A DNA stretch of 53,716 bases from Phycisphaerae bacterium (GTDB taxonomy: Bacteria > Planctomycetota > Phycisphaerae > Sedimentisphaerales > SG8-4): positions 1 to 53,716 of the forward strand of contig JAUVYQ010000001.1 of assembly GCA_030603035.1 (NCBI GenBank). Reading direction: 5' to 3'. Numbering within the stretch: position 1 is the stretch's first letter; the number at the start of each line of letters is the position of its first letter. The notes under the pieces are model-generated. The model worked only from the letters and a program-made list of their open reading frames with translations. It ran no database searches and was not told the DNA's origin. A program made the position numbers and the translations under genes. This document shows positions 14,374 to 44,576 of this stretch, piece after piece.

Positions 14374-15492
14374 ATGCTGAAGAAATTGCGATGCAGATTG
14401 GTTTTATTGGTGAGTCTTCTGGTTTTGTGTGCTGCAGCGAGCAACATAGCTGCGGAAGATGGTTCGCGATGGCTTGTTTCGCCGGAGCTGCTTGAACACG
14501 CCGGGCTGAAGCTATTGTGGCAGAGTGAGCTGCCGATGAAGAAGACGGAGAGTTTAGAGCGATTATTTGTTCTTGGTAATTGTGTCTATGCGCTATCGGA
14601 GCGCAATTATATGGTTTGTTTGAGCAGCGAAAAGGGAAATGTGATATTCAGCAGGCCTTTTGCACCGCTTGGTTTTCCGGTGCTTGGGTTGGAGCTTTAT
14701 GAGGATGAGCTTATATCTGTAATTGGCGGCAGGTTGATTGAGATTAACGCGGAGTTCGGCACAGAACGTAAGGCCACGCGTGTGGAGTTTGGTATAGCCT
14801 GTCCAGCAGCTCGGAACAGCTCGTATTTTTATTTGGGCGGGACCGACAGGCGGATGCATACGTTACGTGCGGAGGATAAAGTTCAGGTTTTTGAGGTGGC
14901 TGCTGAGAACGATTCGATGATTACTTCGATTGTTGCCGACGAGGATTTTGTTGTCTTTGGCACCGATGCGGGCAACGTGATAAGTATCACGCCGGACGCG
15001 CCGAGGCGGCTGTGGCGGTTTGACGCCGCTGATAGTATTGTTGGGCCGATTGTGAGGGATGGAGAATCGCTATTTTTTGCCAGTAAAGATACGAATATAT
15101 ACAGGGTTGACGTAGTTTACAGGGCCAACACATCTACGAAGAAGCTTGTCTGGAAGTATCAGACGGCGGCGGTGCTCGATAAGGCGCCGCGGGTGACGGG
15201 AGGGGTTGTTTATCAGTATGTTCGGTATAAAGGTCTGGAGGCAATAGACAAAAAGAGCGGCAAATTTATGTGGCAGGTGCCGGAAGGCGTTGATTTGTTA
15301 GCTGAGTCGGCGGGAAAGGCATACGTGATTGCAAAGAAGGGTAAGCTGGTGGTGATGGACAATAAGAAAGCGAAGCGGCTGTATTCGGTTAATTTTGCGA
15401 GGGTTTCGAGATATGTGGCCAATGTAGCGGATTCGAGAATTTATATTGCGGATAAGGCCGGCCGGGTTGCCTGTATAAAACCGATTGAATAA
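14374..15492 (+). CDS. Secreted PQQ-like beta-propeller repeat protein
   Basis: The start at 14374 (GAGGG 7-8 bases upstream) gives a 372-residue protein with a signal peptide (basic MLKKLRCR, hydrophobic to about 24, then NIAAE). The mature part is made of repeated four-strand blades with PQQ/WD-type endings such as VYALSERN, VFGTDAGNVISI, FFASKDTNIYRVD, EAIDKKSGKFMWQV and VYIADKAGRVACI-like segments. Such proteins in Planctomycetota are exported scaffolds or BamB-like; an enzyme role with bound PQQ is not evident. The final ~90 residues are the best-conserved propeller. Confidence 0.75.
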   Translation: MLKKLRCRLVLLVSLLVLCAAASNIAAEDGSRWLVSPELLEHAGLKLLWQSELPMKKTESLERLFVLGNCVYALSERNYMVCLSSEKGNVIFSRPFAPLGFPVLGLELYEDELISVIGGRLIEINAEFGTERKATRVEFGIACPAARNSSYFYLGGTDRRMHTLRAEDKVQVFEVAAENDSMITSIVADEDFVVFGTDAGNVISITPDAPRRLWRFDAADSIVGPIVRDGESLFFASKDTNIYRVDVVYRANTSTKKLVWKYQTAAVLDKAPRVTGGVVYQYVRYKGLEAIDKKSGKFMWQVPEGVDLLAESAGKAYVIAKKGKLVVMDNKKAKRLYSVNFARVSRYVANVADSRIYIADKAGRVACIKPIE

Positions 15493-17255: not shown

Positions 17256-17285
17256 ATTAGGGCGGCTATATGGGGCCGCCCCTAC
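17256..17285. repeat. REP palindrome copy 1
   Basis: Word TTAGGGCGG…TATGGGGCCGCCCCTAC, the same palindrome as the four copies near the RAYT gene at 19 kb. It sits at the edge of a decayed RAYT fragment. Confidence 0.85.
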
Positions 17286-17360
17286 GACATTTATGATTCC
17301 ATGGAAATGGTTCGGCATGACAAGACATTCGCCTGCTCGAATGGTAGGGAATTTGTGTAA
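17257..17360 (-). pseudogene. Decayed fragment of a REP-associated transposase gene
   Basis: The DNA at 17286-17360 aligns by eye with 19333-19405 inside the intact RAYT gene, and the minus-strand translation holds MPNHFHGIINVVGAAP, the HUH-type His motif region of RAYTs. Only about 35 codons remain, with no start or end. It is a remnant of a second RAYT copy together with its REP. Confidence 0.75.
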
Positions 17361-19003: not shown

Positions 19004-19032
19004 TTAGGGCGGCCACATGGGGCCGCCCCTAC
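19004..19032. repeat. REP palindrome copy 2
   Basis: TTAGGGCGGCCACATGGG…CCGCCCCTAC, a nearly perfect GGGCGGCC/GGCCGCCC palindrome; it overlaps the stop end of the RAYT gene by a few bases. Confidence 0.9.
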
Positions 19033-19601
19033 GATGTTACGTTTGGGTTTTCCCTGTCGGTTCGCCAGTCGGCGGGGTTGTCGGCGATGTACCGGCAGTA
19101 GTGATTTAATTCGCCTTCGCTGCGGATGATATGCTCGTAATAATTGCGCTGCCATAATCTGCCAGGAAATGAGGGCCAACCGTCTCGTTTTACACCACGA
19201 ATGTATTGATTGGTCGTCATAGTTTTGAACCAATTCACAATATTTCCCAATGTAGGGGCAATCCCATGTGATTGCCCAAATTTGTTGTTGCCATTATCAG
19301 GTTCAGGGCGACCACATGGGGCCGCCCCTACGATGTTTATGATTGCGTGAAAATGGCTGGGCATGACAACACATTCGTCCGTTCGAACCAAGGGGAATTT
19401 GTCGGTCACCTTTCGCCACCAGATATCTACCATCAACCCGGCATTATTCAAGCACATTCGGTCCTTGACTATTTCCCCAAACAGACAATTTCGGTTCTGT
19501 GTGCAAATCGTAACGAAATACCAACCCTCTTGTGAATAATCGTAGCCAGATAGGCGGGTAGAGCGGCGGTGATGTATATTGGGGTCGTATTTCTCCGACA
19601 T
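19029..19601 (-). CDS. REP-associated tyrosine transposase (RAYT)
   Basis: A 190-residue IS200-like Y1 transposase relative. The start at 19601 gives MSEKYDPNIHHRRSTRLSGYD, the usual RAYT opening. The HUH motif appears as CVVMPSHFHAIINIVG, and the catalytic Tyr region as RLWQRNYYEHIIRSEGEL; RYIADNPADW follows near the C-terminus. RAYTs cut and move REP palindromes. Four REP copies surround it, one of them inside its coding sequence where it encodes GAAPCGRPE. The gene looks intact. Start confidence is moderate because the ribosome site is poor. Confidence 0.92.
   Translation of the reverse strand: MSEKYDPNIHHRRSTRLSGYDYSQEGWYFVTICTQNRNCLFGEIVKDRMCLNNAGLMVDIWWRKVTDKFPLVRTDECVVMPSHFHAIINIVGAAPCGRPEPDNGNNKFGQSHGIAPTLGNIVNWFKTMTTNQYIRGVKRDGWPSFPGRLWQRNYYEHIIRSEGELNHYCRYIADNPADWRTDRENPNVTS
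19304..19331. repeat. REP palindrome copy 3, inside the RAYT gene
   Basis: CAGGGCGACCACATGGGG…CCTAC lies within the RAYT coding sequence and is translated in frame as GAAPCGRPE just after the HUH motif. Confidence 0.9.
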
Positions 19602-19643
19602 AAAAAGGATTGTATTGGATATCACCAGGTTTGCAAGAGATTT

Positions 19644-19669
19644 GGGCGACCACATAGGGTCGCCCCTAC
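19644..19669. repeat. REP palindrome copy 4
   Basis: GGGCGACCACATAGGGTCGCCC, upstream of the RAYT start. Both arms carry matching changes (GGGCGACC/GGGTCGCCC), so the pairing has been kept despite divergence from the other copies. Confidence 0.9.
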
Positions 19670-19693
19670 TCAGAAAATCGGAGAAATACCAGA

Positions 19694-19722
19694 TTAGGGC
19701 GGCCACATGGGGCCGCCCCTAC
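19694..19722. repeat. REP palindrome copy 5, overlapping the metK stop codon
   Basis: TTAGGGCGGCCACATGGG…CCTAC, identical to copy 2. The metK stop (TAG, minus strand, 19719-19721) lies inside its right arm, so the REP also forms the metK mRNA 3' end structure. Confidence 0.9.
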
Positions 19723-25231: not shown

Positions 25232-25645
25232 AAAAGTACCTCTTAGTTGCGGTTTTTATTATCCTTTAATGTATGGACTTAAAAAAATAACAGCCCGATT
25301 GTACCAGCATTAACGATTTATGGACAGATACTTCTGCGAATATAGTAAAGAAAGACCGATTATTGGACGAGTGAAAAATAATAGCGTATAGTATGCTTTT
25401 TCTATCCACTATCGGCTACAGATTTGGAACTATTATGGCTTATAATGCTGCTTACGGCCCGAAAAATCCACCCAGCCCATCCGATGGGCGGGGCAAAGGA
25501 CTTTTAGCCAATAAGTCTGAAGTGCGTTCCACCCATAAGGAGAGGGCCAAATTCACTTGACAAAAGCCGGTTTTAACGTTAATCTGGATAATATTAAACG
25601 CAGGTCCAGGGTGAAATCTGCTTGTTTTTGAGGGTGTTTAGAATA
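25232..25645. other. Divergent regulatory gap between sulfatase and ABC-operon region
   Basis: No gene. It holds the promoter at 25557-25585 (below) and a CCCATCCGATGGGC hairpin near 25478. Nothing else is recognised. Confidence 0.5.
25557..25585 (+). promoter_or_regulatory. Likely sigma-70 promoter
   Basis: TTGACA (25557-25562), 17 bases, TAATCT (25580-25585), 60 bases before the unknown gene at 25646 that may head the ABC operon. Another TAATAT-like box lies a few bases on. Confidence 0.55.
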
Positions 25646-26827
25646 ATGAAGGGTAAAGGGGTGATTTTTGGTGTTCTGGCGACATTTTTGGTTTTAGCGA
25701 TGCATTCGGGTTCTGATGCCGTCAATACCAGGGGGATTGACAGGGTGCGCAATAAGGGGGTGCTTGACAGCAGAGATTTTCAGATTATTGACGATTTTGT
25801 GAATGAGGCGGTGCGAGAATTGGTCAGGACCAAAGATTTTTCGTCTATAGCAACGATTCGTTCGGTCATTCTGGCACGCCGCTCGAGCAAAACGAGCGTT
25901 CAAGCCCAATATGCCGAACAGTTTTCCGAGTCGGCCTATAAATACATCTCTTCGGGCCTTCAAGAAGCCGAGAAACTAACCCCGGAAGGTCGAAAACTTA
26001 AGGTAAAGGTTAATCTTTTGATTCTGATGGATGGTCTGGAAGACGTGCGGTTGGTTGATTTGGCTATCGGGATGCTGAAAGATAAGAATACGGTTATTCG
26101 CTACCTTGCGGTTCGTTCTATTACTAACCCAGGTATTGTAAAGCAATTAAATTCTACAGGGGCGGACAATTCTAAATTGGCACGCCGCATCGTCGAGCGA
26201 CTTAAAGAGCTGGTTGACCCAGCCCCTCCGGGGGTTGACCAAGCCGGTCCTGAGGTGATACGCTTAATGGCTGAATTTGCGGCTGCGGTGAAGGTTGCGC
26301 AAGGCGAGGATTTATTGGGCCAGATAGCTGATATGCGAATGAAAAGATACGCTGACTGGACGGTGAAATATGAACTTTTGGATGCTGCCATCTTAAAATT
26401 GTTATTCCAAAAGATATCTTCTGGGGGTTCGAGTCCGCCAGGGCGGATTGCCCGCTGCTTCGGGCAGCTATATTCTTACGTGCTCCAGAGATATGTTAAG
26501 GGGCGGGATTCTCTAAGTGCAACCCAGAAACATCAACTGGCTTCGGTACTGGTGGAGATAGAGCAATCGTGTATTAGCAAGCTTTTGGGGATGCGACAAA
26601 CGGTAATAAAGAGAGCTGTAGAGGGGGGTGATTATACGGCTCTTTTGCAGGAGCATAGTAGATTACTCGGAGGCAAGGCAGGGGCCGGGCGATTACCGTT
26701 GAAGCTGAAGTTCGACTACGGCAAGACCAGCGATGGGGTCAAACGCATCGCTCCGCTTGCTTTGCCGGAGCGGCCCAGGACCAAGGCGTCTTTGCCACAA
26801 AGGCACCAAGACACCAAGTTTTTCTAA
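25646..26827 (+). CDS. Unknown exported, helical-repeat-like protein ending in a repeat
   Basis: The ATG at 25646 gives 393 residues with a signal-like N-terminus (KGKGVIFGVLATFLVLAM). The body is alpha-helical with pieces such as LAIGMLKDKNTVIRYLAVRSI, reminiscent of HEAT-type repeats. No family is recognised. The last ~12 codons (ending CCAAG-rich) run into repeat A (26792-26866), so the natural C-terminus was probably altered by the repeat. It is followed after 103 bases by the first binding-protein gene in the same direction. Confidence 0.65.
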   Translation: MKGKGVIFGVLATFLVLAMHSGSDAVNTRGIDRVRNKGVLDSRDFQIIDDFVNEAVRELVRTKDFSSIATIRSVILARRSSKTSVQAQYAEQFSESAYKYISSGLQEAEKLTPEGRKLKVKVNLLILMDGLEDVRLVDLAIGMLKDKNTVIRYLAVRSITNPGIVKQLNSTGADNSKLARRIVERLKELVDPAPPGVDQAGPEVIRLMAEFAAAVKVAQGEDLLGQIADMRMKRYADWTVKYELLDAAILKLLFQKISSGGSSPPGRIARCFGQLYSYVLQRYVKGRDSLSATQKHQLASVLVEIEQSCISKLLGMRQTVIKRAVEGGDYTALLQEHSRLLGGKAGAGRLPLKLKFDYGKTSDGVKRIAPLALPERPRTKASLPQRHQDTKFF

Positions 26828-26866
26828 TTTATAATTTCTTCGTGACTTTGTGACTTCGTGGCTATT
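26792..26866. repeat. Repeat A, copy 1 (CACAAAGGCACCAAG hairpin)
   Basis: TTGCCACAAAGGCACCAAGA… and …CTTCGTGACTTTGTGACTTCG form an imperfect inverted pair of about 75 bp. A second copy lies at 44501-44576 with few differences. The left arm encodes the C-terminus of the preceding protein. Confidence 0.85.
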
Positions 26867-26886
26867 TTTGCAAAATGGCGTTCCCG

Positions 26887-26906
26887 CCAAGGGGCGTCCC
26901 CCTTGG
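26887..26906. promoter_or_regulatory. Hairpin before the first binding-protein gene
   Basis: CCAAGGGG, loop CGTC, CCCCTTGG: a perfect 8-bp stem with a 4-base loop. It ends 24 bases before the ATG at 26931, close to the GGAGG ribosome site at 26917. It could protect the 3'-side mRNA or affect initiation. Confidence 0.5.
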
Positions 26907-26930
26907 GACAAACATTGGAGGTTTGGTATT

Positions 26931-28673
26931 ATGAATGGACGCGGAGGCGTTGTTACATTTTTCATCTTTCTGTTCCTGTCGGTCGTTATCCTGCTGCAAA
27001 TTCTTTCGATGGTGCAATCCGACCGATTGTACGAAGGTCTTAATCGGCTCGATGAGATTTTTGAAAGCGCTGCTCCTATGCGCGGTGCCAAGGGTGAGCC
27101 GGATGTCCCTGCCGTGATTGGTGAAGGATATCCGGGCGATGAGGGCGATTGGCTTGTATGGGCGTTTCGGGTCGAGCCCAGGACCCTGAATCAGATTTCC
27201 GCGGACGCTGATATATACTCGAGGTGGATTACCACGCCCTATATTTTTGAGCCGCTTTTAGATTATGACTATGACGAGATAAAGCTTGTGCCCTGGCTGG
27301 CGGAAAGCTATGAAGTTTCCGGTGACGGTCTGGAAATAACTTTTCGCCTGAGGGACGATATATACTTTTCGGATGGAGTGCCCGTAACCACAGATGACGT
27401 TATTTTTACCTATGAGACCATAGTAAATCCCGGGGTTGATGCGGCAAATATAGCTAATTATTACAGGGATGTTGACAAAGTTGTTAAAATCAGCGACCGC
27501 GAAGTGAAGTTTATAATGAAAAGGCCTTATTTTAAGTCTCTTGAGATTGTGGGTCTTATCGATACGGGGATAATGCCGAAACATATCTATGAATTCGATG
27601 AGCCGGAGGAATTCAATAAGCGTATATCGAACCCTGTTGGCAGCGGGCCATATTTATTTGAGAAATGGGATGTGGGCAGGGAAGTCGTTTTGCGTCGCAA
27701 TGAGAACTATTGGGGCCGCAAGCCTAAACTGAAAAGAATAGTTTATAAGTTTATTCAAAATACTGTTGCGTGCCTGCAGGCCCTGCGTTCCGGCCAGATA
27801 GACATTATGATTCCTGAACCCGAACAATTTGCCGACCTGGACGGAGATGTAGGGTTCAAGAGTCAGTTCTACTATCTTTGCTATTATGAGCCGCGTGTTC
27901 CTTTCTTTTATATTGGATGGAACCAGGATACTGTATTTTTTTCCGACAGGCTGGTCCGCCTGGCTATGACACATATTGTAAATCGTGAGCAAATAGTTAC
28001 TCACCTTATTAAAGGCAGTGGACGTCTGACTACGGGCCCGTTTTATATTGGTGGGAATCAAGATGACCCGGACATTGAGCCCTGGCCTTATGGCCCTGAG
28101 CGCGCCAAAGAATTGCTGGACGAGGCCGGCTGGGTCGATAGCGATGGTGATGGCATACGCGACAAGGATGGAACCGCTTTCAGGTTTAGATTTATGTACA
28201 CCAGTGAGAGTACGTTTTATCAGAGGTTGGTCAAAGTGCTGAAGGATGAGGCGGCTAAAGTGGGAATAGAATTGATTCCCGACCCCTTTGAATGGTCGGT
28301 CCTTATATCTCGGTTAAATGATAGAAAATTTGAGGCAACGGTTATGGGCTGGGGTGGTGATGTAATCGACGACCCTTATCAGATATGGCATTCATCCCAG
28401 ATTGGCAATCGAGGTTCTAATTACGTAGGCTTTAGAAATCGGCAGGCTGATGCGCTTATTGAAGAAGCGCGGGAGACGTTAGATGAAAACAAACGTAATG
28501 AGCTTTATCATCAATTGCACCGAATTTTGCACGAGGAACAGCCTTATACGTTTTTGTTCGAAAGGCCCATTATGCGTCTTTTGGACAGGCGATTTGAAAA
28601 TGTTATAATTCACAAAAAGGGACTAAACTGGTTAGAATGGTATGTTCCCAAAGAAAAGCAAAAGTACAAATAG
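26931..28673 (+). CDS. ABC transporter substrate-binding protein (SBP_bac_5), first copy
   Basis: A 580-residue periplasmic-type binding protein of the oligopeptide/dipeptide/nickel family. The ATG at 26931 has GGAGG 9 bases upstream. Instead of a cleavable signal or lipobox it has one N-terminal membrane segment (about 8-24, VTFFIFLFLSVVILLQIL) with no Cys, so it is probably membrane-anchored. Family marks: PYIFEPLLDYDYDE, LAESYEVS, GLEITFRLRDDIYFSDGVPVT, GSGPYLFEKW. A small Asp-rich loop DSDGDGIRDKDG (near 400) is common in this family. It precedes a near-duplicate gene. Confidence 0.9.
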   Translation: MNGRGGVVTFFIFLFLSVVILLQILSMVQSDRLYEGLNRLDEIFESAAPMRGAKGEPDVPAVIGEGYPGDEGDWLVWAFRVEPRTLNQISADADIYSRWITTPYIFEPLLDYDYDEIKLVPWLAESYEVSGDGLEITFRLRDDIYFSDGVPVTTDDVIFTYETIVNPGVDAANIANYYRDVDKVVKISDREVKFIMKRPYFKSLEIVGLIDTGIMPKHIYEFDEPEEFNKRISNPVGSGPYLFEKWDVGREVVLRRNENYWGRKPKLKRIVYKFIQNTVACLQALRSGQIDIMIPEPEQFADLDGDVGFKSQFYYLCYYEPRVPFFYIGWNQDTVFFSDRLVRLAMTHIVNREQIVTHLIKGSGRLTTGPFYIGGNQDDPDIEPWPYGPERAKELLDEAGWVDSDGDGIRDKDGTAFRFRFMYTSESTFYQRLVKVLKDEAAKVGIELIPDPFEWSVLISRLNDRKFEATVMGWGGDVIDDPYQIWHSSQIGNRGSNYVGFRNRQADALIEEARETLDENKRNELYHQLHRILHEEQPYTFLFERPIMRLLDRRFENVIIHKKGLNWLEWYVPKEKQKYK

Positions 28674-28767: not shown

Positions 28768-30501
28768 ATGAATGGTCGTTCGGGATTGCTCACGTTTTTT
28801 ATTTTCCTGTTTCTCGCTGTGATAATATTGCTTCAAGTTTTGTCGATGGTCCAGTCGGACCGATTGTATGAGCGTCTTAATTATCTTGTAGATACGTGGC
28901 AAAGCAGGGGGCCTGTGAGGGTGGCTCAAGAAGAGGGATGCTCGAAGGATTTGCCGGGGAAAGAATATCCCGGCGACGAGGGCGACTGGCTGGTGTGGAG
29001 AATTGGCGCTGAGCCGGCCACTTTAAATTATATAACATCCAAGGATATTTATGCTAATTGGATAGTGGGCGGGAACATTTTTGAAAGTCTTTTAGAATAT
29101 GACTACGATGAAGTCGAACTCAAACCTCTGTTAGCTGAAAGCTATGAGGTTTCTTCTGATGGTCTGGAAATGACTTTTCGGCTGCGGAAGGACATACATT
29201 TTTCTGACGGGGTGCCAATAACTACCGACGATGTCATCTTTAGCTACCAGACAATAATAAATCCTGATGTGGATGCCCATGCGTTGGCCAACTATTATTA
29301 CCCTATCAAGAAAGTGATTCAGATTGACAGCCACACGGTGAAGTTTGTTCTTCGTGAGCTGTATTTTAAGGGCTTTGAGATAGGCGGGCTTATGCCGATA
29401 GTGCCGAAGCATATTTACGAATTTTCCGATGCTGCGGAGTTTAATAAGCGTCGTTCTAATCCGGTGGGTAGCGGGCCTTATCTTTTTGAGAAATGGGACG
29501 TTGGGCGTGAAATTGTTCTGCGGCGAAACGAAAACTACTGGGGCCGAAGGCCGAAGTTGAAAAAAATTGTTTTCCGGGTAATCACTAATGAGGTGGCGGC
29601 ACTGCAGGCCTTGCGTTCGCACCAGGTGGATTTTATGGTGCCGAATTCGGAACAATTTGTTGAGCTGTCGGAGGAGGAGGAATTTGTCAAGGAATTCGAG
29701 TGTCTTTCCTATTGGAACCCGGGGGTGGGTTATTCCTACATAGGTTGGAACCAGAGTACTGCGTTTTTTGGTGACCGCCGGGTGCGATTGGCTATGACGC
29801 ATCTTGTGGACCGAAAAACAATTATCAAGCATCTTATGAAAGGTCTTGGTCGCATCGTGACGGGGCCGTTTTATGTCCTGGGCAAACAGTATGATTCGAG
29901 TATTGAACCCTGGCCTTACGACCCTGAGCGTGCCAAACAGTTACTTGATGAGACCGGCTGGCGTGATACCGATGGAGACGGAATGCGGGATAAAGAAGGA
30001 GTGCCCTTTAGATTCAAGTTTATGATAGTTAGTGGTTATCTTCCGGGGGAACAAATAGCCAAGTTGTTAAAAGATGAGATGGCAAAAGCAGGCATAGATT
30101 TGATTCCGGACCCTTATGAGTGGTCGGTTTTTGAGGAGCGGCTTAATAGGAGGTCCTTTGATGCTACGATGTTAGCGTGGGGCGGGACAGTGCTGGCGGA
30201 CCCCTATCAGATATGGCATTCATCGCAAATTAAAGGACGCGGTTCCAATCGGGTCGGGTTTGACCACCCGGAAGCGGATGCCATTATCGAAGAGGCCCGG
30301 AGAACTTTGGATGAGAGTGAACGTAACAAGCTGTATCACCGTTTTCACCGGATTTTACATAAGGAGCAGCCTTATACGTTTTTTCGTGCCAGGCCGTCAC
30401 TGCGTTTCCTGGATAAGCGTTTTAAGAATGTAAAAGTCCACAAACTGGGACTGAACCCGCATGAATGGTATGTGCCGAAAGAAGAGCAGAGGTATAAATG
30501 A
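28768..30501 (+). CDS. ABC transporter substrate-binding protein (SBP_bac_5), second copy
   Basis: A 577-residue paralogue of the preceding gene, roughly 55-60% identical by eye, with the same uncleaved N-terminal membrane segment (LTFFIFLFLAVIILLQVL), the same YPGDEGDWLVW start of the mature part and the DTDGDGMRDKEG loop. AGGAG lies 7-8 bases before the ATG. The pair may bind different ligands for one permease, a known arrangement for oligopeptide-type importers. The stop (TGA, 30499-30501) is followed directly by heptamer repeats. Confidence 0.9.
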   Translation: MNGRSGLLTFFIFLFLAVIILLQVLSMVQSDRLYERLNYLVDTWQSRGPVRVAQEEGCSKDLPGKEYPGDEGDWLVWRIGAEPATLNYITSKDIYANWIVGGNIFESLLEYDYDEVELKPLLAESYEVSSDGLEMTFRLRKDIHFSDGVPITTDDVIFSYQTIINPDVDAHALANYYYPIKKVIQIDSHTVKFVLRELYFKGFEIGGLMPIVPKHIYEFSDAAEFNKRRSNPVGSGPYLFEKWDVGREIVLRRNENYWGRRPKLKKIVFRVITNEVAALQALRSHQVDFMVPNSEQFVELSEEEEFVKEFECLSYWNPGVGYSYIGWNQSTAFFGDRRVRLAMTHLVDRKTIIKHLMKGLGRIVTGPFYVLGKQYDSSIEPWPYDPERAKQLLDETGWRDTDGDGMRDKEGVPFRFKFMIVSGYLPGEQIAKLLKDEMAKAGIDLIPDPYEWSVFEERLNRRSFDATMLAWGGTVLADPYQIWHSSQIKGRGSNRVGFDHPEADAIIEEARRTLDESERNKLYHRFHRILHKEQPYTFFRARPSLRFLDKRFKNVKVHKLGLNPHEWYVPKEEQRYK

Positions 30502-30571: not shown

Positions 30572-31570
30572 GTGTCAACTTATATAGTAAGACGTTTGTT
30601 GTTGATGATACCGACGCTGTTGGGGATAACCGTAATGGTTTTTGCCATCAGTCGGATTGCGCCAGGCGACCCGGTCAGCCTGGCTATGGGGCCGGGTGGG
30701 CAGATGGATGCTGAGCGGGCGGCGGATGTTCGTAAGGCGCGGATGGAGCTGTACGGGCTGGATAAACCTGTTCATATTCAATATGGCAAGTGGTTGTGGC
30801 GGGTGGTTCGTTTTGATTTTGGGGATTCAATTAAGCATCATCGGCCGGTTATTGAACTAATCAAAGAGAGATTGCCCATTACGCTGACGCTGAATTTAAT
30901 TGCTTTTGTAATTATCTATGTGGTATCGCTGCCGTTGGGGGTTTTAGCGGCGGTGAGGCATAAGCAATTTTTCGACCGCGCCAGCTCAGTGGCTCTTTTT
31001 ATGCTGTGGTCGCTGCCGAGTATGTTGGTTGGCCAGATGCTGATAGGTTATTTTTGCGGGCCGACGTTTAAGAATTGGTTTCCGCCGGCGGGGCTTAGCA
31101 GCAATTACGCAGACCAGCTGCCTTTTTTCCCGTGGTTGGCCGATAGACTGTGGCATCTGGTTTTGCCGGTGTTTTGTCTGACATACGCGGGTTTTGCGTA
31201 TCTTACCAAGCAGGTCAGGGCGGGGATGCTGGATAATCTGCGAGCTGATTATGTAAGAACCGCTCGTGCGAAGGGGCTGTCGAACTGGGTCGTGATATTC
31301 AGGCATGCATTTCGCAACAGTGTGATTCCGGTGATTACGATAATGGCTACCCTGCTGCCTATGATGCTTGGAGGGTCGGTAATTATTGAGCGGATATTCA
31401 GTGTTCCCGGTATGGGGCTGCTGGCGTTTGAAGCGGTTACGACCCGTGATTATAACGTGGTTATGGCTGTGGCGACCATCGGAGGACTGATGAATCTAAT
31501 TGGTCTTTTGTTGGCCGATATTGCTTATGCCATCGCTGACCCAAGGATAAGTTTTGAAAGTTCCGTGTAG
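30572..31570 (+). CDS. ABC transporter permease, OppB/DppB type
   Basis: A 332-residue inner-membrane subunit starting with GTG at 30572 (GGAAG about 7 bases upstream). N-terminal MSTYIVRRLLLMIPTLLGITV is the classic start of this family; RIAPGDPV is its N-terminal signature. Six membrane segments are seen, and the EAA-type loop ARAKGLSNWVVIFRHAFRNS (about 230-249) contacts the ATPase. GGSVIIERIFSVPGMG near the C-terminus is also typical. It pairs with the next permease. Confidence 0.92.
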   Translation: MSTYIVRRLLLMIPTLLGITVMVFAISRIAPGDPVSLAMGPGGQMDAERAADVRKARMELYGLDKPVHIQYGKWLWRVVRFDFGDSIKHHRPVIELIKERLPITLTLNLIAFVIIYVVSLPLGVLAAVRHKQFFDRASSVALFMLWSLPSMLVGQMLIGYFCGPTFKNWFPPAGLSSNYADQLPFFPWLADRLWHLVLPVFCLTYAGFAYLTKQVRAGMLDNLRADYVRTARAKGLSNWVVIFRHAFRNSVIPVITIMATLLPMMLGGSVIIERIFSVPGMGLLAFEAVTTRDYNVVMAVATIGGLMNLIGLLLADIAYAIADPRISFESSV

Positions 31571-31661
31571 GAAAAAAATTAACCGCAGAGAGCGCCGAGA
31601 GCGCAGAGAAAGAACTAAAATTGAAAAACTCCGCGGTCTCTGCGAGCTCGGCGGTAAAAAA
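31571..31661. repeat. Repeat B, copy 1 (91 bp, intergenic)
   Basis: Word GAAAAAAATTAACCGCAGAG… to …GCTCGGCGGTAAAAAAG. Its ends are quasi-palindromic (CCGCAGAG…/CTCTGCG…GGCGGT). Copy 2 lies inside the ATPase gene at 34515-34605 and differs at only two positions. Confidence 0.92.
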
Positions 31662-31671
31662 GTAGGAAGTT

Positions 31672-32874
31672 ATGAGTAAAGGCGTGCGGGAAAAAGCGAA
31701 TTGGGGAGTGTCTTACGGCGAGATGGTCTGGCGTGAGTTTATCAAAAGTCGGCTTAGTGTTGCCAGCCTGATATTTGCTGCGGTTCTGTTTTTGTTGGCT
31801 ATTTTTGCACCGTTCCTTGCAAATGACAAGCCGTTTGTGATTCGTGTTGATGGCCGGTTGCATTTTCCTCTTTTTAGAAACCTGCGGCCCAATGATTATT
31901 GTGTTTTCCTTGCAGCAACTGTTGGAGTTTTTCAGCTGCTGTTAATCAGGCGCAATCGCAGGCGGATTGACCCCTCTATCCGTGGGGCGGTGTTTTGGCG
32001 TCAGATATGTATCAGTAGTTCAATAATTCTCATAGGAGGTATACTGGCATTTGTTTTTGTACCTCGGCGGCTTGATGCTAAAGATTACAAAGCAATGGTT
32101 GCTTCGGGGGAAGCGAGCGATGCGATTTTTGCTCCGATACCCTATGGTTACGGTCGTACCGACCTGCCGGTGCGTGAGCAGCCGCCCAGTCGCCGGCATT
32201 GGCTGGGGACCGATGATGTTGGCTCCGATGTATTATGCAGGTTGATTCACGGCAGCAGAATATCGCTTTCGGTGGGGTTTGTGGCGGTCGGGATATCAAG
32301 TGTTATCGGTATTTTTGTAGGGGCGATTCTGGGATATTTCGGGGGTAAAGTTGATTTTGTCGGGATGCGTATTGTCGAGATAATGATGGCAATTCCGACG
32401 TTCTTTCTTATTATCACAATTGTGGCGTTTTTCCCGCGAAGCCTCTTAAATATTATGATAATTATCGGCATTACCAGTTGGACGGGAGACGCACGTTTTA
32501 TCCGGGCGGAGTTTTTCAAGTTGCGAAAGCAGGATTTCGTTCAGGCGGCGGTGTCCCTCGGATTGCCGTTGCGCAGCATTCTTTTTCGGCATATGCTGCC
32601 GAATGGCATTGCTCCGGTGCTGGTGAACGCTACGTTTGGTATTGCGGGCGCCATATTTATCGAGGCGGCCCTTAGTTTTCTCGGTTTTGGTGTCGCCCCC
32701 CCAACTCCGAGCTGGGGACAGATGCTCAGTCTGGGTGTTGCTACAACGGGCAGGTTTCTCTGGTGGCTGACTCTGTTTCCGGGACTGGCGATATTTTTTA
32801 CCGTGATGGCGTACAATCTGGTCGGCGAGGCCTTGCGGGATGCGATTGACCCGCGATTGAGGAAAGCGGTATGA
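31672..32874 (+). CDS. ABC transporter permease, OppC/DppC type
   Basis: A 400-residue permease. Beyond the usual ~300 residues it has an N-terminal insertion (about 60-150) with an additional membrane segment pair and a hydrophilic loop before [13 protein letters not shown], the family signature (176-188). The EAA loop is [20 protein letters not shown] (about 285-304), followed by [19 protein letters not shown]. Start after repeat B with weak GGAAG-type site. The stop overlaps the next start (ATGA, 32871-32874), so it is coupled to the first ATPase. Confidence 0.92.
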
Positions 32875-33863
32875 GCAAAGACGGCGTTTTGTTATCGATA
32901 GAAGGACTGAGTGTCAGCTTTTTTACGGACGAGGGCGTTGTAAAAGCGGTTCAGGATGTGGGTTTTTCGATAAAGAAAGGCCGAACGTTTGCGCTTGTTG
33001 GCGAGAGCGGGTGCGGGAAGAGTGTAACGGCACTTTCGATTATGCGATTGGTTCCGGAGCCGCCGGGTAAAATCGTTGGCGGTGAAATTGTTTTTGAGGG
33101 TCGAAACCTGCTGGCGTTGAGCGAGAAAGAGATACGGCAGGTTCGCGGAAATGAAGTTGCTATAATTTTTCAGGAGCCGATGACCAGTCTCAATCCGGTC
33201 TATACGGTGGGCGCTCAGATTGTTGAGGCCATAAGGCTGCATCAGAAAAAAAGCACAAGCGAAGCGTGGGCGGATGCGGCTGAGATGCTGCGAAAGGTAG
33301 GCATTGCTGATTCGGCGCAGCGGGTGCGTGAATATCCGCATCAGATGTCCGGTGGGATGCGGCAGCGAGTTATGATAGCTATGGCAGTAAGCTGTGAGCC
33401 GGTACTATTGATTGCTGATGAGCCGACAACTGCTCTGGATGTAACGATTCAGGCACAGATATTGGATTTGTTAGACGAACTCCAAAAGGAGAACGGGATG
33501 AGTATTTTATTGATAACCCACGATTTGAGCGTTGTGGCTGAACGGGCTGAGGATGTTGCGGTGATGTATGCATCGCGAATAGTGGAAGTGGCTGATTCGC
33601 AGCGGCTTTTTGCGGAGCCTTTTCATCCTTATACACAGGGGCTATTAAAATCTTTGCCGCGATTGGGTTTTTCGGGCAGGCGTCTGCGGACAATTTCAGG
33701 GACTGTTCCTGAGCCGTTGCATTTTCCATCGGGGTGTAAATTTCATCCTCGCTGTCAAATAGGGTGCAGTAACAGGAGGTGTCAGACTGTCGAGCCGAAG
33801 CTTAGAGAGGTTGAAGCCGGGCGGTGTGTTGCCTGCTGGTATGCTCCGGGCTACGAAAAGTAG
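32871..33863 (+). CDS. ABC transporter ATP-binding protein, OppD/DppD type
   Basis: A 330-residue cytoplasmic ATPase. Walker A GESGCGKS (44-51), Q-loop FQEP (100-103), signature MSGGMRQR (159-166), Walker B LLIADEP (179-185), H-loop LLITHD. It ends with the family-specific C-terminal Cys region, [14 protein letters not shown] followed by CKFHPRC…C…C, which in OppD-type subunits binds a metal cluster. Coupled by overlap to the permease gene. Confidence 0.95.
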
Positions 33864-33901
33864 CGAAAAACTTGAAACGAAAAATGTAAAACCGTAGTGT
33901 A

Positions 33902-34095
33902 AAACAAAAAATGAAATACGAAATACGAAATCCGAAGCACGAAACAATATCTAATGACCGAAATTTAAATGACCAAAAGAATAAGTTTTGGAAATTTGAG
34001 CATTCGAATTTCGAATTTGTTTCGGATTTCGATATTCGATATTCGATTTTTAATTTTGAATTATGGTTTTTAGCTTTTGGATTTAAGCTTTCAGT
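33902..34095. repeat. AT-rich word repeat with inverted halves
   Basis: The left half repeats GAAATACGAAATACGAAATCCGAA-type words (33911-33945); the right half has their reverse complement (TTTCGGATTTCGATATTCGATATTCG, words at 34019-34050). The whole gap before the second ATPase gene could fold into one long imperfect hairpin. No promoter or gene is convincing. Confidence 0.75.
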
Positions 34096-34104
34096 TTTAC
34101 TATT

Positions 34105-35196
34105 ATGGCAAGCACAAACGACTATCTGCTGAAGGTTGATAACTTAAAGACCTATTTTCCTATAAAGAAAGGTCTGCTTCGTCGAACTGTTGGTTACGTC
34201 AGGGCGGTTGACGGGATAAGTTTTGGTATCAAAAAGGGGCAGACGCTGGGTCTGGTCGGCGAGAGCGGCTGTGGCAAGACGACTGTTGCCAGGAGTATAG
34301 TTCGGCTGGTGCCGGCAACGGCAGGGCAGGTAGTTTTTTCCGCAGGACGCCTCTCGGCGGAACAGACGGATGTTTTGTCGGCTGACAGGGTCAAATTGCG
34401 TCAGCTTCGGAGGCAGATTTCGCTTATTTTTCAGGACCCGTACGGCTCGCTAAATCCGAGAATGACCGTTGGCAATACCATTGGTGAGCCGTTGAAGGTT
34501 CAAGGAGAAGCGGCGAAAAAAATTAACCGCAGAGAGTGCCGAGAGCGCAGAGAAAGAACTAAAATTAAAAAACTCCGCGGTCTCTGCGAGCTCGGCGGTA
34601 AAAAAAGCAGTGAGCTGATTGAGCGCGTTGCGGCATTGCTTTCAAAGGTGGGGCTGTCGCCTGACCATATAAACCGTTATCCACATGAGTTCTCGGGTGG
34701 GCAGCGGCAGCGAATCGGGGTAGCCAGGGCCCTGGCGCTGGAGCCGAAATTGGTTATTTGTGATGAGCCGGTCAGTGCTCTTGATGTTTCGATTCAATCG
34801 CAGATTTTGAATTTGCTGAAAGATTTGCAGGAGGAATTTGGGCTGACGTATTTGTTTATCGCCCATGATTTGGCTGTGGTGGAGTTTTTCTGCGATATTG
34901 TGGCGGTTATGTATATGGGCAAGATAGTGGAACAGGCCACGGCGGAAGGGCTGTATCGGAACCCTCTGCATCCGTATACTCGTGCCCTTATGTCGGCGAT
35001 TCCACGGGTTGAGCCGTCGCTGCGGGGCAGCAGAACCGCATTTGGTGGGGAAGTGCCGAGCGCTTTGAATCCGCCGGCCGGCTGTGCATTTGGCCCGAGA
35101 TGTCCTCTGGCTGAGGATAAATGCCGAAAGCAGAGACCTGCTTTGATGCAAAGGAGCGATTGCAAGGACCACTTTGTTGCCTGCTGGAAATGTTGA
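34105..35196 (+). CDS. ABC transporter ATP-binding protein, OppF/DppF type, with in-frame repeat insertion
   Basis: A 363-residue second ATPase. Walker A GESGCGKT (52-59), Q-loop FQDPYGSLNP (109-118), signature FSGGQRQRIG (196-205), Walker B LVICDEP (216-222), H-loop HD (254-255), C-terminal HPYTRALMSAIP and CAFGPRCP. Between GEPLKVQGEA (127-136) and SELIERVAALLSKVGL (169-184), where relatives have a short linker, lie about 31 extra residues rich in Arg/Lys/Glu (138-168) encoded by repeat B at 34515-34605. Frame is kept on both sides and all catalytic motifs are intact, so the protein could well be functional. Confidence 0.92.
   Translation: MASTNDYLLKVDNLKTYFPIKKGLLRRTVGYVRAVDGISFGIKKGQTLGLVGESGCGKTTVARSIVRLVPATAGQVVFSAGRLSAEQTDVLSADRVKLRQLRRQISLIFQDPYGSLNPRMTVGNTIGEPLKVQGEAAKKINRRECRERRERTKIKKLRGLCELGGKKSSELIERVAALLSKVGLSPDHINRYPHEFSGGQRQRIGVARALALEPKLVICDEPVSALDVSIQSQILNLLKDLQEEFGLTYLFIAHDLAVVEFFCDIVAVMYMGKIVEQATAEGLYRNPLHPYTRALMSAIPRVEPSLRGSRTAFGGEVPSALNPPAGCAFGPRCPLAEDKCRKQRPALMQRSDCKDHFVACWKC
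34515..34605. repeat. Repeat B, copy 2, inside the ATPase coding sequence
   Basis: Same 91-bp sequence as 31571-31661 apart from C to T and G to A changes. It is translated as part of the ATPase without a stop and adds about 30 residues, giving KINRRECRERRERTKIKK and onward. Confidence 0.93.
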
Positions 35197-44224: not shown

Positions 44225-44500
44225 AATCTCCTGGTTAAATAGGCCGGTAATCTATCTGATGGTCTCTTTGAAACAGTCGACACGTGGCGTAAGGACTAGA
44301 CTTATGATATAAGAAACTGGTCACATGATGGTCTAACGTGTAATAAGTGCTCCCACACCCGAGCATGTAGTGAAAGCGTACGATGGTGATTCATGCCAAT
44401 GCTTTCAATTTCGTCACACAGCAATAATGTGTGGAATATCTGACGCAATAATCTACCATTACGCCTGTCTTCATTTCCCACTGCAAGATGCAAATCTTTT

Positions 44501-44576
44501 TTGCCACAAAGGCACCAAGACACCAAGGTTTTTTTATTATTAATTTCTTCGTGACTTTGTGTCTTCGTGGCTAATC
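44501..44576. repeat. Repeat A, copy 2
   Basis: TTGCCACAAAGGCACCAAGA… to …TGTGTCTTCGTGGCTAA, the same element as 26792-26866, 17.7 kb away. It lies just past the end of the REC-PAS-kinase gene. Confidence 0.88.

Follow-up and report, generated by a model that had tools for sequence, protein, structure and literature searches.

Probable in-frame insertion of a small mobile palindrome into an OppF-type ATPase gene, and further gene-invading repeats, in an uncultured planctomycete

The stretch analyzed here, referred to as the window, comprises 53,716 nucleotides of contig JAUVYQ010000001.1 from a Phycisphaerae bacterium. It carries an OppD-type ATPase gene (32871..33863, + strand) and an OppF/DppF-type ABC ATPase gene (34105..35196, + strand) encoding 363 residues. 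Between the two, at 33901-34056, lies an AT-rich inverted repeat of the ACGAAATACGAAATCC type, which is absent from the related genome G063. The window also features two tandem binding-protein-type genes (26850-28673 and 28768-30501, named by eye) that share blocks of 70-73% identical DNA. Two 91-bp repeats, at 31571-31661 and 34515-34605, are identical at 89 of 91 positions (E = 3.4e-41 in a search within the window), which confirms the coordinates and the two differences reported in the initial annotation. On the + strand each forms a single long-stem hairpin with a 20-nt loop; the folding energies are -34.4 kcal/mol (z -4.9) and -31.5 kcal/mol (z -5.3), and among 200 dinucleotide-shuffled sequences 1 and 0, respectively, fold as stably; the repeat is therefore hairpin-forming as claimed. 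The element itself, described here as family A, occupies 31574..31661 (copy 1, + strand, 88 bp), flanked by two genes that by eye are of permease type, and 34516..34605 (copy 2, + strand, 90 bp), where it lies in frame in OppF.

Alignment of the window operon to G063 yields blocks with 84-94% DNA identity, the two longest at 91%, and also shows short tandem-repeat differences and non-coding indels. The spacer that holds copy 1 is empty in G063 (L141:2574-2580). Relative to this empty site the window has 95 additional bases, comprising the 88-bp element and a second GTAGGAA, such that a 7-bp target duplication flanks copy 1 on the left (31567..31573, + strand) and on the right (31662..31668, + strand). 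No target duplication is visible for copy 2 at the OppF site.

The OppF reading frame (34105-35196) is uninterrupted by a stop across the repeat, so the read-through proposed earlier stands. Both Pfam domains, ABC_tran and oligo_HPY, are still detected in the insert-bearing protein; its best solved-structure match is E. coli OppF (8z21_D; TM 0.83 by query, 0.92 by target), and its OppF/DppF-type identity also agrees with a close homolog. The residues of the motifs that we take to be Walker A, Q-loop, signature, Walker B and H-loop occupy invariant columns, all outside the insert, which together with the Pfam matches bears out the suggestion that the ATPase motifs remain intact. Relative to homologs the gene has gained 30 codons (34516-34605), a size fixed by the linker of the nearest loci; the addition is in frame as first described, but slightly smaller than the roughly 31 residues then given. 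Comparison with relatives found the 30-codon segment in none of 80 aligned homologous loci (the best 80 of 565 confirmed, from species-level genomes), and its peptide was absent from 117 other aligned OppF proteins (among the best 120 of 8000 scored; P0014 and P0096 were excluded for length, giving 118 aligned rows with the query). Two loci, L023 and L045, possess other, unrelated longer stretches at the same position. In a tree built without the linker columns, the query has P0002 as its sister (SH-aLRT 99). Over 313 columns the two are 96% identical, and P0002 has a different insert, so that the family A insertion in OppF is probably younger than the split from P0002. Elsewhere the tree is weak, 45 of its 115 inner branches falling below 80. 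A second, small in-frame extra stretch lies at 34339..34359 (+ strand; 21 bp, 7 codons). It is absent from G063, and its 7 residues are also present in P0023 and P0071.

Outside the linker, a plain count over 313 codons of the window and G063 OppF genes sets 40 synonymous against 31 non-synonymous differences, which fits purifying selection. A structural model from a diverse alignment has a mean pLDDT of 89.9, with ten-residue blocks of the insert at 53-74; it superseded a poor AlphaFold model from close homologs only (pLDDT 37.8). The insert region is modeled as two helices joined by a loop, the first of them lengthened (122-149) and the second at 160-181, and the insert is thus predicted to lengthen a helical hairpin while leaving the OppF core intact.

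A genome search for further copies of family A found them in G063 (at least 38 matches, E up to 0.01, with 40 of 62 candidates scored), in G001 and in other relatives. At E up to 0.001 there are 17 matches in G001, 11 in G002, 6 in G004 and 5 each in G003 and G007, and none in G005, G006 or G008. Within this Sedimentisphaerales-type order (Planctomycetota, Phycisphaerae), at least 30 of 161 genomes, about one-fifth, contain the element (E up to 1e-6, with scoring limited to five candidates in each genome). These copies, together with the empty site and 7-bp duplication at copy 1, uphold the initial description of a mobile palindrome; neither of the two outcomes that the initial annotation named as refuting it, orthologs in many genera sharing the segment or a lack of other copies, was observed. 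Numerous matches comprise one arm only, and the loop often contains other repeats, so that insertions are nested. No consistent target duplication was found: the best 5-bp flank match holds for 6 of 40 copies (shuffled mean 3.9, max 7), and the clean duplication at copy 1, set against these chance-level flanks, indicates no general rule for family A. The arms pair at 19.6 of 27 positions within a copy and at 20.4 of 27 between copies (10.9 for a shuffled arm), so that pairing is present, with no copy-specific covariation.

Gene context was read at 59 loci and for the OppD copy L081, i.e. 60 of 82 family A matches, and at the majority of these 60 there is no long open frame on both sides. Several copies nevertheless lie within genes. 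The OppD gene of G001 features family A in frame (L001:6767-6845, 90% identical to the window copy), and the G063 ortholog of the window OppD has a different palindrome, a 39-bp in-frame insert. In G063, FtsK (L195) carries family A in frame between its membrane and motor parts, and a DinG-like helicase (L196) has the left arm and loop, also in frame. In G003 (L100:773-2236) cmk and plsC domains lie in one ORF, joined via a family A remnant with a nested GGATTCC-type repeat, a join that may equally be explained as a fusion of neighboring genes. With OppF, these whole or partial elements substantiate the earlier proposal that the palindrome creates new protein segments. A few further copies lie in long open frames of doubtful coding value (e.g. 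L096, L106, L163 and L174).

A k-mer search over 0.54 Mb of G063 surfaced two additional palindromic families; nothing was found at k=14 and 12 copies, and lower thresholds brought families C and D. Family C has the pattern CCCGTTAGAAATT...AATTTCTAACGGG and is represented by at least 42 matches in G063, at least 34 in G001, at least 26 in G024 and 5 in G022 (E up to 0.05, half-matches included, with scoring limited to 40 candidates). Its flanking hexamers are identical at 5 or more of 6 positions in 25 of the 51 copies read in G063, and exact flanking 5-mers occur in 5 of 13 (shuffled mean 1.0, max 3). The core length is a multiple of three in 17 of 18 ORF copies and in 23 of 33 non-ORF copies (binomial p 2e-5 for the latter; 22/31 with a slightly different motif). 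Selection for such lengths outside genes was considered and is not secure, with 8 of 18 distinct lengths being multiples of three where 6 are expected; the bias can be accounted for by common ancestry of the 57-bp and 60-bp forms, and does not prove adaptation. A scan for long elements bounded by family C ends, covering approximately 0.9 Mb of G063 plus 16 further loci, found none. At L193:10549-10606 a family C copy lies in frame in what appears by eye to be a prepilin-like leader, directly before an FTLIELL motif.

Other small repeats were also observed. A sister palindromic family of the CACAAAG type, a direct-repeat family with 9-nt CACAAAG/CACCAAG units, has two window copies that are 88% identical (26782..26864 and 44491..44573, both + strand). 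For the GGATTCC REP family, no target duplication was found (2/29, shuffled mean 1.4). REP-like palindromes with GTAG at one end lie at 17259-17356 and 19305-19402, the adjoining sequence featuring, by eye, the HUH motif of a Y1 transposase; a Pfam search on the neighboring ORF (19029-19706) returned no match. Rfam gave two matches, both far under gathering scores.

Family D is a 21-bp palindrome with the pattern CCCGCCCCTCSGAGGGGCGGG. In G063 it has 143 matches at up to one mismatch, against 0 for a reversed-pattern control, and 72 distinct copies were read. ORFs were called mechanically (at least 150 codons, greedy), with those open at the end of a stretch allowed for the family D counts. 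Fifty of the 72 copies lie within such ORFs with 30 bp to spare, and occupy all three frames (25, 13 and 12). Family D is more often ORF-resident than family A (13/21 versus 4/22, Fisher p 0.005, coding fraction 0.82), a comparison made on 0.54 Mb of stretches mostly picked for family A or window matches. Flanking hexamers are identical at 5 or more of 6 positions in 57 of 72 copies, and 49 have direct repeats of 5 bp or more at a spacing of 27 (shuffled mean 8.5, max 13). The core and its 6-bp duplication together make 27 bp, i.e. nine codons, and 68 of the 72 cores are stop-free in all six frames. The palindrome is imperfect, with pair 3-19 mispaired in 53/72; one stem pair features double changes (C-G in 57 copies, T-A in 6, A-T in 5, other in 4). 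When 13 D-bearing proteins were scanned against Pfam, twelve matched known families. The element lies within the matched domain in six (sulfatase, cytidylate kinase, Memo-like, DUF5696, RACo and radical SAM), and between or beyond matched domains in six.

Similar features are seen in G002, where 29 of 30 family D copies were read: 17 of the 29 lie in ORFs and 20 have hexamers identical at 5 or more of 6 positions (shuffled mean 1.8, max 7). Family D was detected at up to one mismatch in 6 of 20 relatives (G002 30, G024 11, G018 5, G003 3, G006 2 and G007 2), and the exact pattern, searched in 392 genomes of the phylum, occurs 105 times in G063 and once in each of two others. This confinement to few related genomes suggests a burst. 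The window itself has one copy (25472..25492, + strand), outside ORFs of at least 100 residues and with mismatched flanking hexamers. Comparison of G063 with the window also provides empty sites for family D. The clean case is at window position 14468, where a G063 gene features a 27-bp palindrome in frame. Imperfect ones are the OppF linker and window position 28948, a binding-protein gene with a 25-column gap opposite a D-like palindrome in G063.

Taken together, family A is very probably a mobile palindrome that recently entered OppF in frame, and one of several gene-invading families, of which C and D probably insert by a staggered cut. Family A would be a non-autonomous element of approximately 88-90 bp, a copy of which would have entered the OppF linker that separates the Q-loop from the signature motif, with the frame kept and the insert presumably tolerated without benefit. 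Several small palindrome families would keep entering genes of this lineage, mobilized by a transposase that presumably acts in trans. The shared ends (CCCG...CGGG) and 6-bp flanking direct repeats of families C and D make a staggered cut probable, often at GYNNRC-like sites, a target read by eye which several sites do not fit. Given the 27 bp of core plus duplication and the stop-free core, landing of family D should normally be frame-neutral, adding nine residues. A bolder reading is that C and D are micro-transposons adapted to coding DNA, in which the 6-bp duplication, the multiple-of-three core and, for D, the freedom from stops would permit frame-neutral spread and generate new peptides; we offer this as a tentative possibility that is rather less likely to be right than wrong.

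It is also conceivable, but in our judgement unlikely, that family A is a REP/REPIN-type repeat moved as single-stranded DNA by a Y1 (RAYT/IS200-like) transposase. Hairpins are substrates of Y1 transposases, whose transposition leaves no target duplication, and family A lacks a general one. Y1 matches were found in seven of nine genomes searched, including a Y1/IS200-type PF01797 match between OppD and OppF at G001:C40:4417-4764 (L202; E 2.9e-29). However, target duplications are present in families C and D as well as at copy 1 of family A, and the GTAG or CGTC end tags are absent, by eye, from A, C and D. The search (E 1e-5) returned no Y1 transposase in G002 or G005, although G002 has 30 family D matches, and G063 has one weak match.

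The OppF linker is itself a hot spot. Inserts of five or more residues occur there in 18 of the 118 aligned rows, query included, and a further 15 inserts lie at six other internal places in the same rows; in OppD, 8 of 120 rows have any internal insert. Within the 14-row clade around the query, nine rows have linker inserts of five kinds, the kinds being distinguished by peptide reading, and the whole tree requires at least 10 changes of insert presence and at least 15 of insert kind. For proteins without DNA, assignment of inserts to the C, S and GGATTCC families relies on peptides read by eye, and tblastn of the linker peptides against DNA gave mainly weak or short hits, family D excepted. 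The G063 linker DNA features family D flanked by GTGAGC on both sides together with further inserted sequence, where the window has GTGAGC once, and the P0009 insert appears to be a palindrome nested in another. Judged from these alignments, the linker is repeatedly invaded by different sequences. The translated CACAAAG-type repeat of the window resembles, by eye, the P0023 and P0045 linker inserts.

Such recurrence raises the question of whether the inserts are selected, with linker length or charge tuning the transporter and the hot spot representing adaptation. The excess of linker inserts in OppF over internal inserts in OppD is in keeping with this, as is the Arg- and Lys-rich family A peptide. 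Nonetheless, the inserted peptides resemble one another in neither sequence nor length, which better suits a permissive site, and the family A insert is modeled at low confidence; the inserts at six other internal places further suggest that tolerance extends beyond the linker. We therefore regard selection on the linker as improbable, and favor entry of a mobile element into a tolerant site. A false join driven by the repeat during metagenome assembly would be prompted by near-identical copies 2.9 kb apart, but is highly improbable, since OppF continues in frame on both sides of the 30 extra codons, the two copies differ at two positions, and independent sequences show different inserts at this linker, as well as family A within OppD. 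The reverse reading, in which the repeat was copied from an ancient or functional linker segment of the gene, draws on the conserved appearance of the rest of OppF, yet is barely credible given that all 80 loci and the 96%-identical sister lack the segment, and that family A occurs elsewhere mainly outside long ORFs and in at least 30 of 161 genomes.

The case of this lineage opens an old question to testing: do small selfish elements steadily supply proteins with new segments, and can such an element evolve so as to do no harm in whichever frame it is read? For annotators, odd short peptides in such proteins may derive from elements of this kind.

The closest parallel, already raised in the initial annotation, is the Rickettsia palindromic element (RPE). 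RPEs are described as mobile palindromes of approximately 105-150 bp, both intergenic and in frame in conserved proteins (Ogata 2000, 2005; PMC2229807, PMC10969869). One tested RPE-bearing protein remained active, and target duplication is entered as unknown for RPEs (PMC2229807). Both RPEs and family A are hairpin palindromes, family A being somewhat shorter at 88-90 bp, and like RPEs it lies in frame in unrelated protein genes (OppF, OppD and FtsK, and as part of the element in the DinG-like gene and at the cmk-plsC junction). A target duplication, by contrast, is seen here for C, D and one family A copy; the OppF linker is moreover hit by several different sequences, and the nearest named relatives of the window belong to Planctomycetota, a different phylum from Rickettsia. 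Two inserted peptides were compared (E up to 10) with NCBIfam, which presumably includes an RPE peptide model, and neither matched, in a test weakened by their shortness. The parallel holds for behavior and probably not for descent.

REPs of the GTAG/CGTC type are described as 20-40 bp palindromes found within ORFs in several species, most REPs being intergenic; in recB, X. campestris and X. oryzae have different REPs at about the same site (PMC3733652), which is a precedent for a linker hit by different inserts. Family A ends in TTAACCGC...GGCGGTAA, and C and D in CCCG...CGGG, without a REP tag by eye, and C and D differ from REPs in carrying 6-bp duplications, as does D in having 50 of 72 copies within ORFs. 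The small dispersed repeats of Nostoc, which Elhai et al. are said to have described in 2008, are reportedly mobile, 21-27 nt long and subject to nested insertion. They are comparable in size to family D, and we know of no description of them in a frame-neutral coding setting. MITEs such as ERIC/RU (PMC2759123) and the Coxiella QMITEs (PMC5896051) are likewise non-autonomous elements with inverted repeats, and parts of proteins are sometimes encoded by them; RU is given as 103-168 bp, far longer than the 27-bp net insertion of family D (PMC2759123). Families C and D resemble MITEs in having terminal inverted repeats and a target duplication, as does family A at copy 1 only. Our literature search, with most subscription journals outside its scope, turned up nothing that describes these planctomycete families or frame-neutral insertions of 27 bp. 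In-frame mobile palindromes in Rickettsia and intragenic REPs were already known; the uncultured planctomycete lineage studied here displays the process together with empty sites and target duplications, with a linker that has been hit again and again, and with a family that lies mostly within ORFs.
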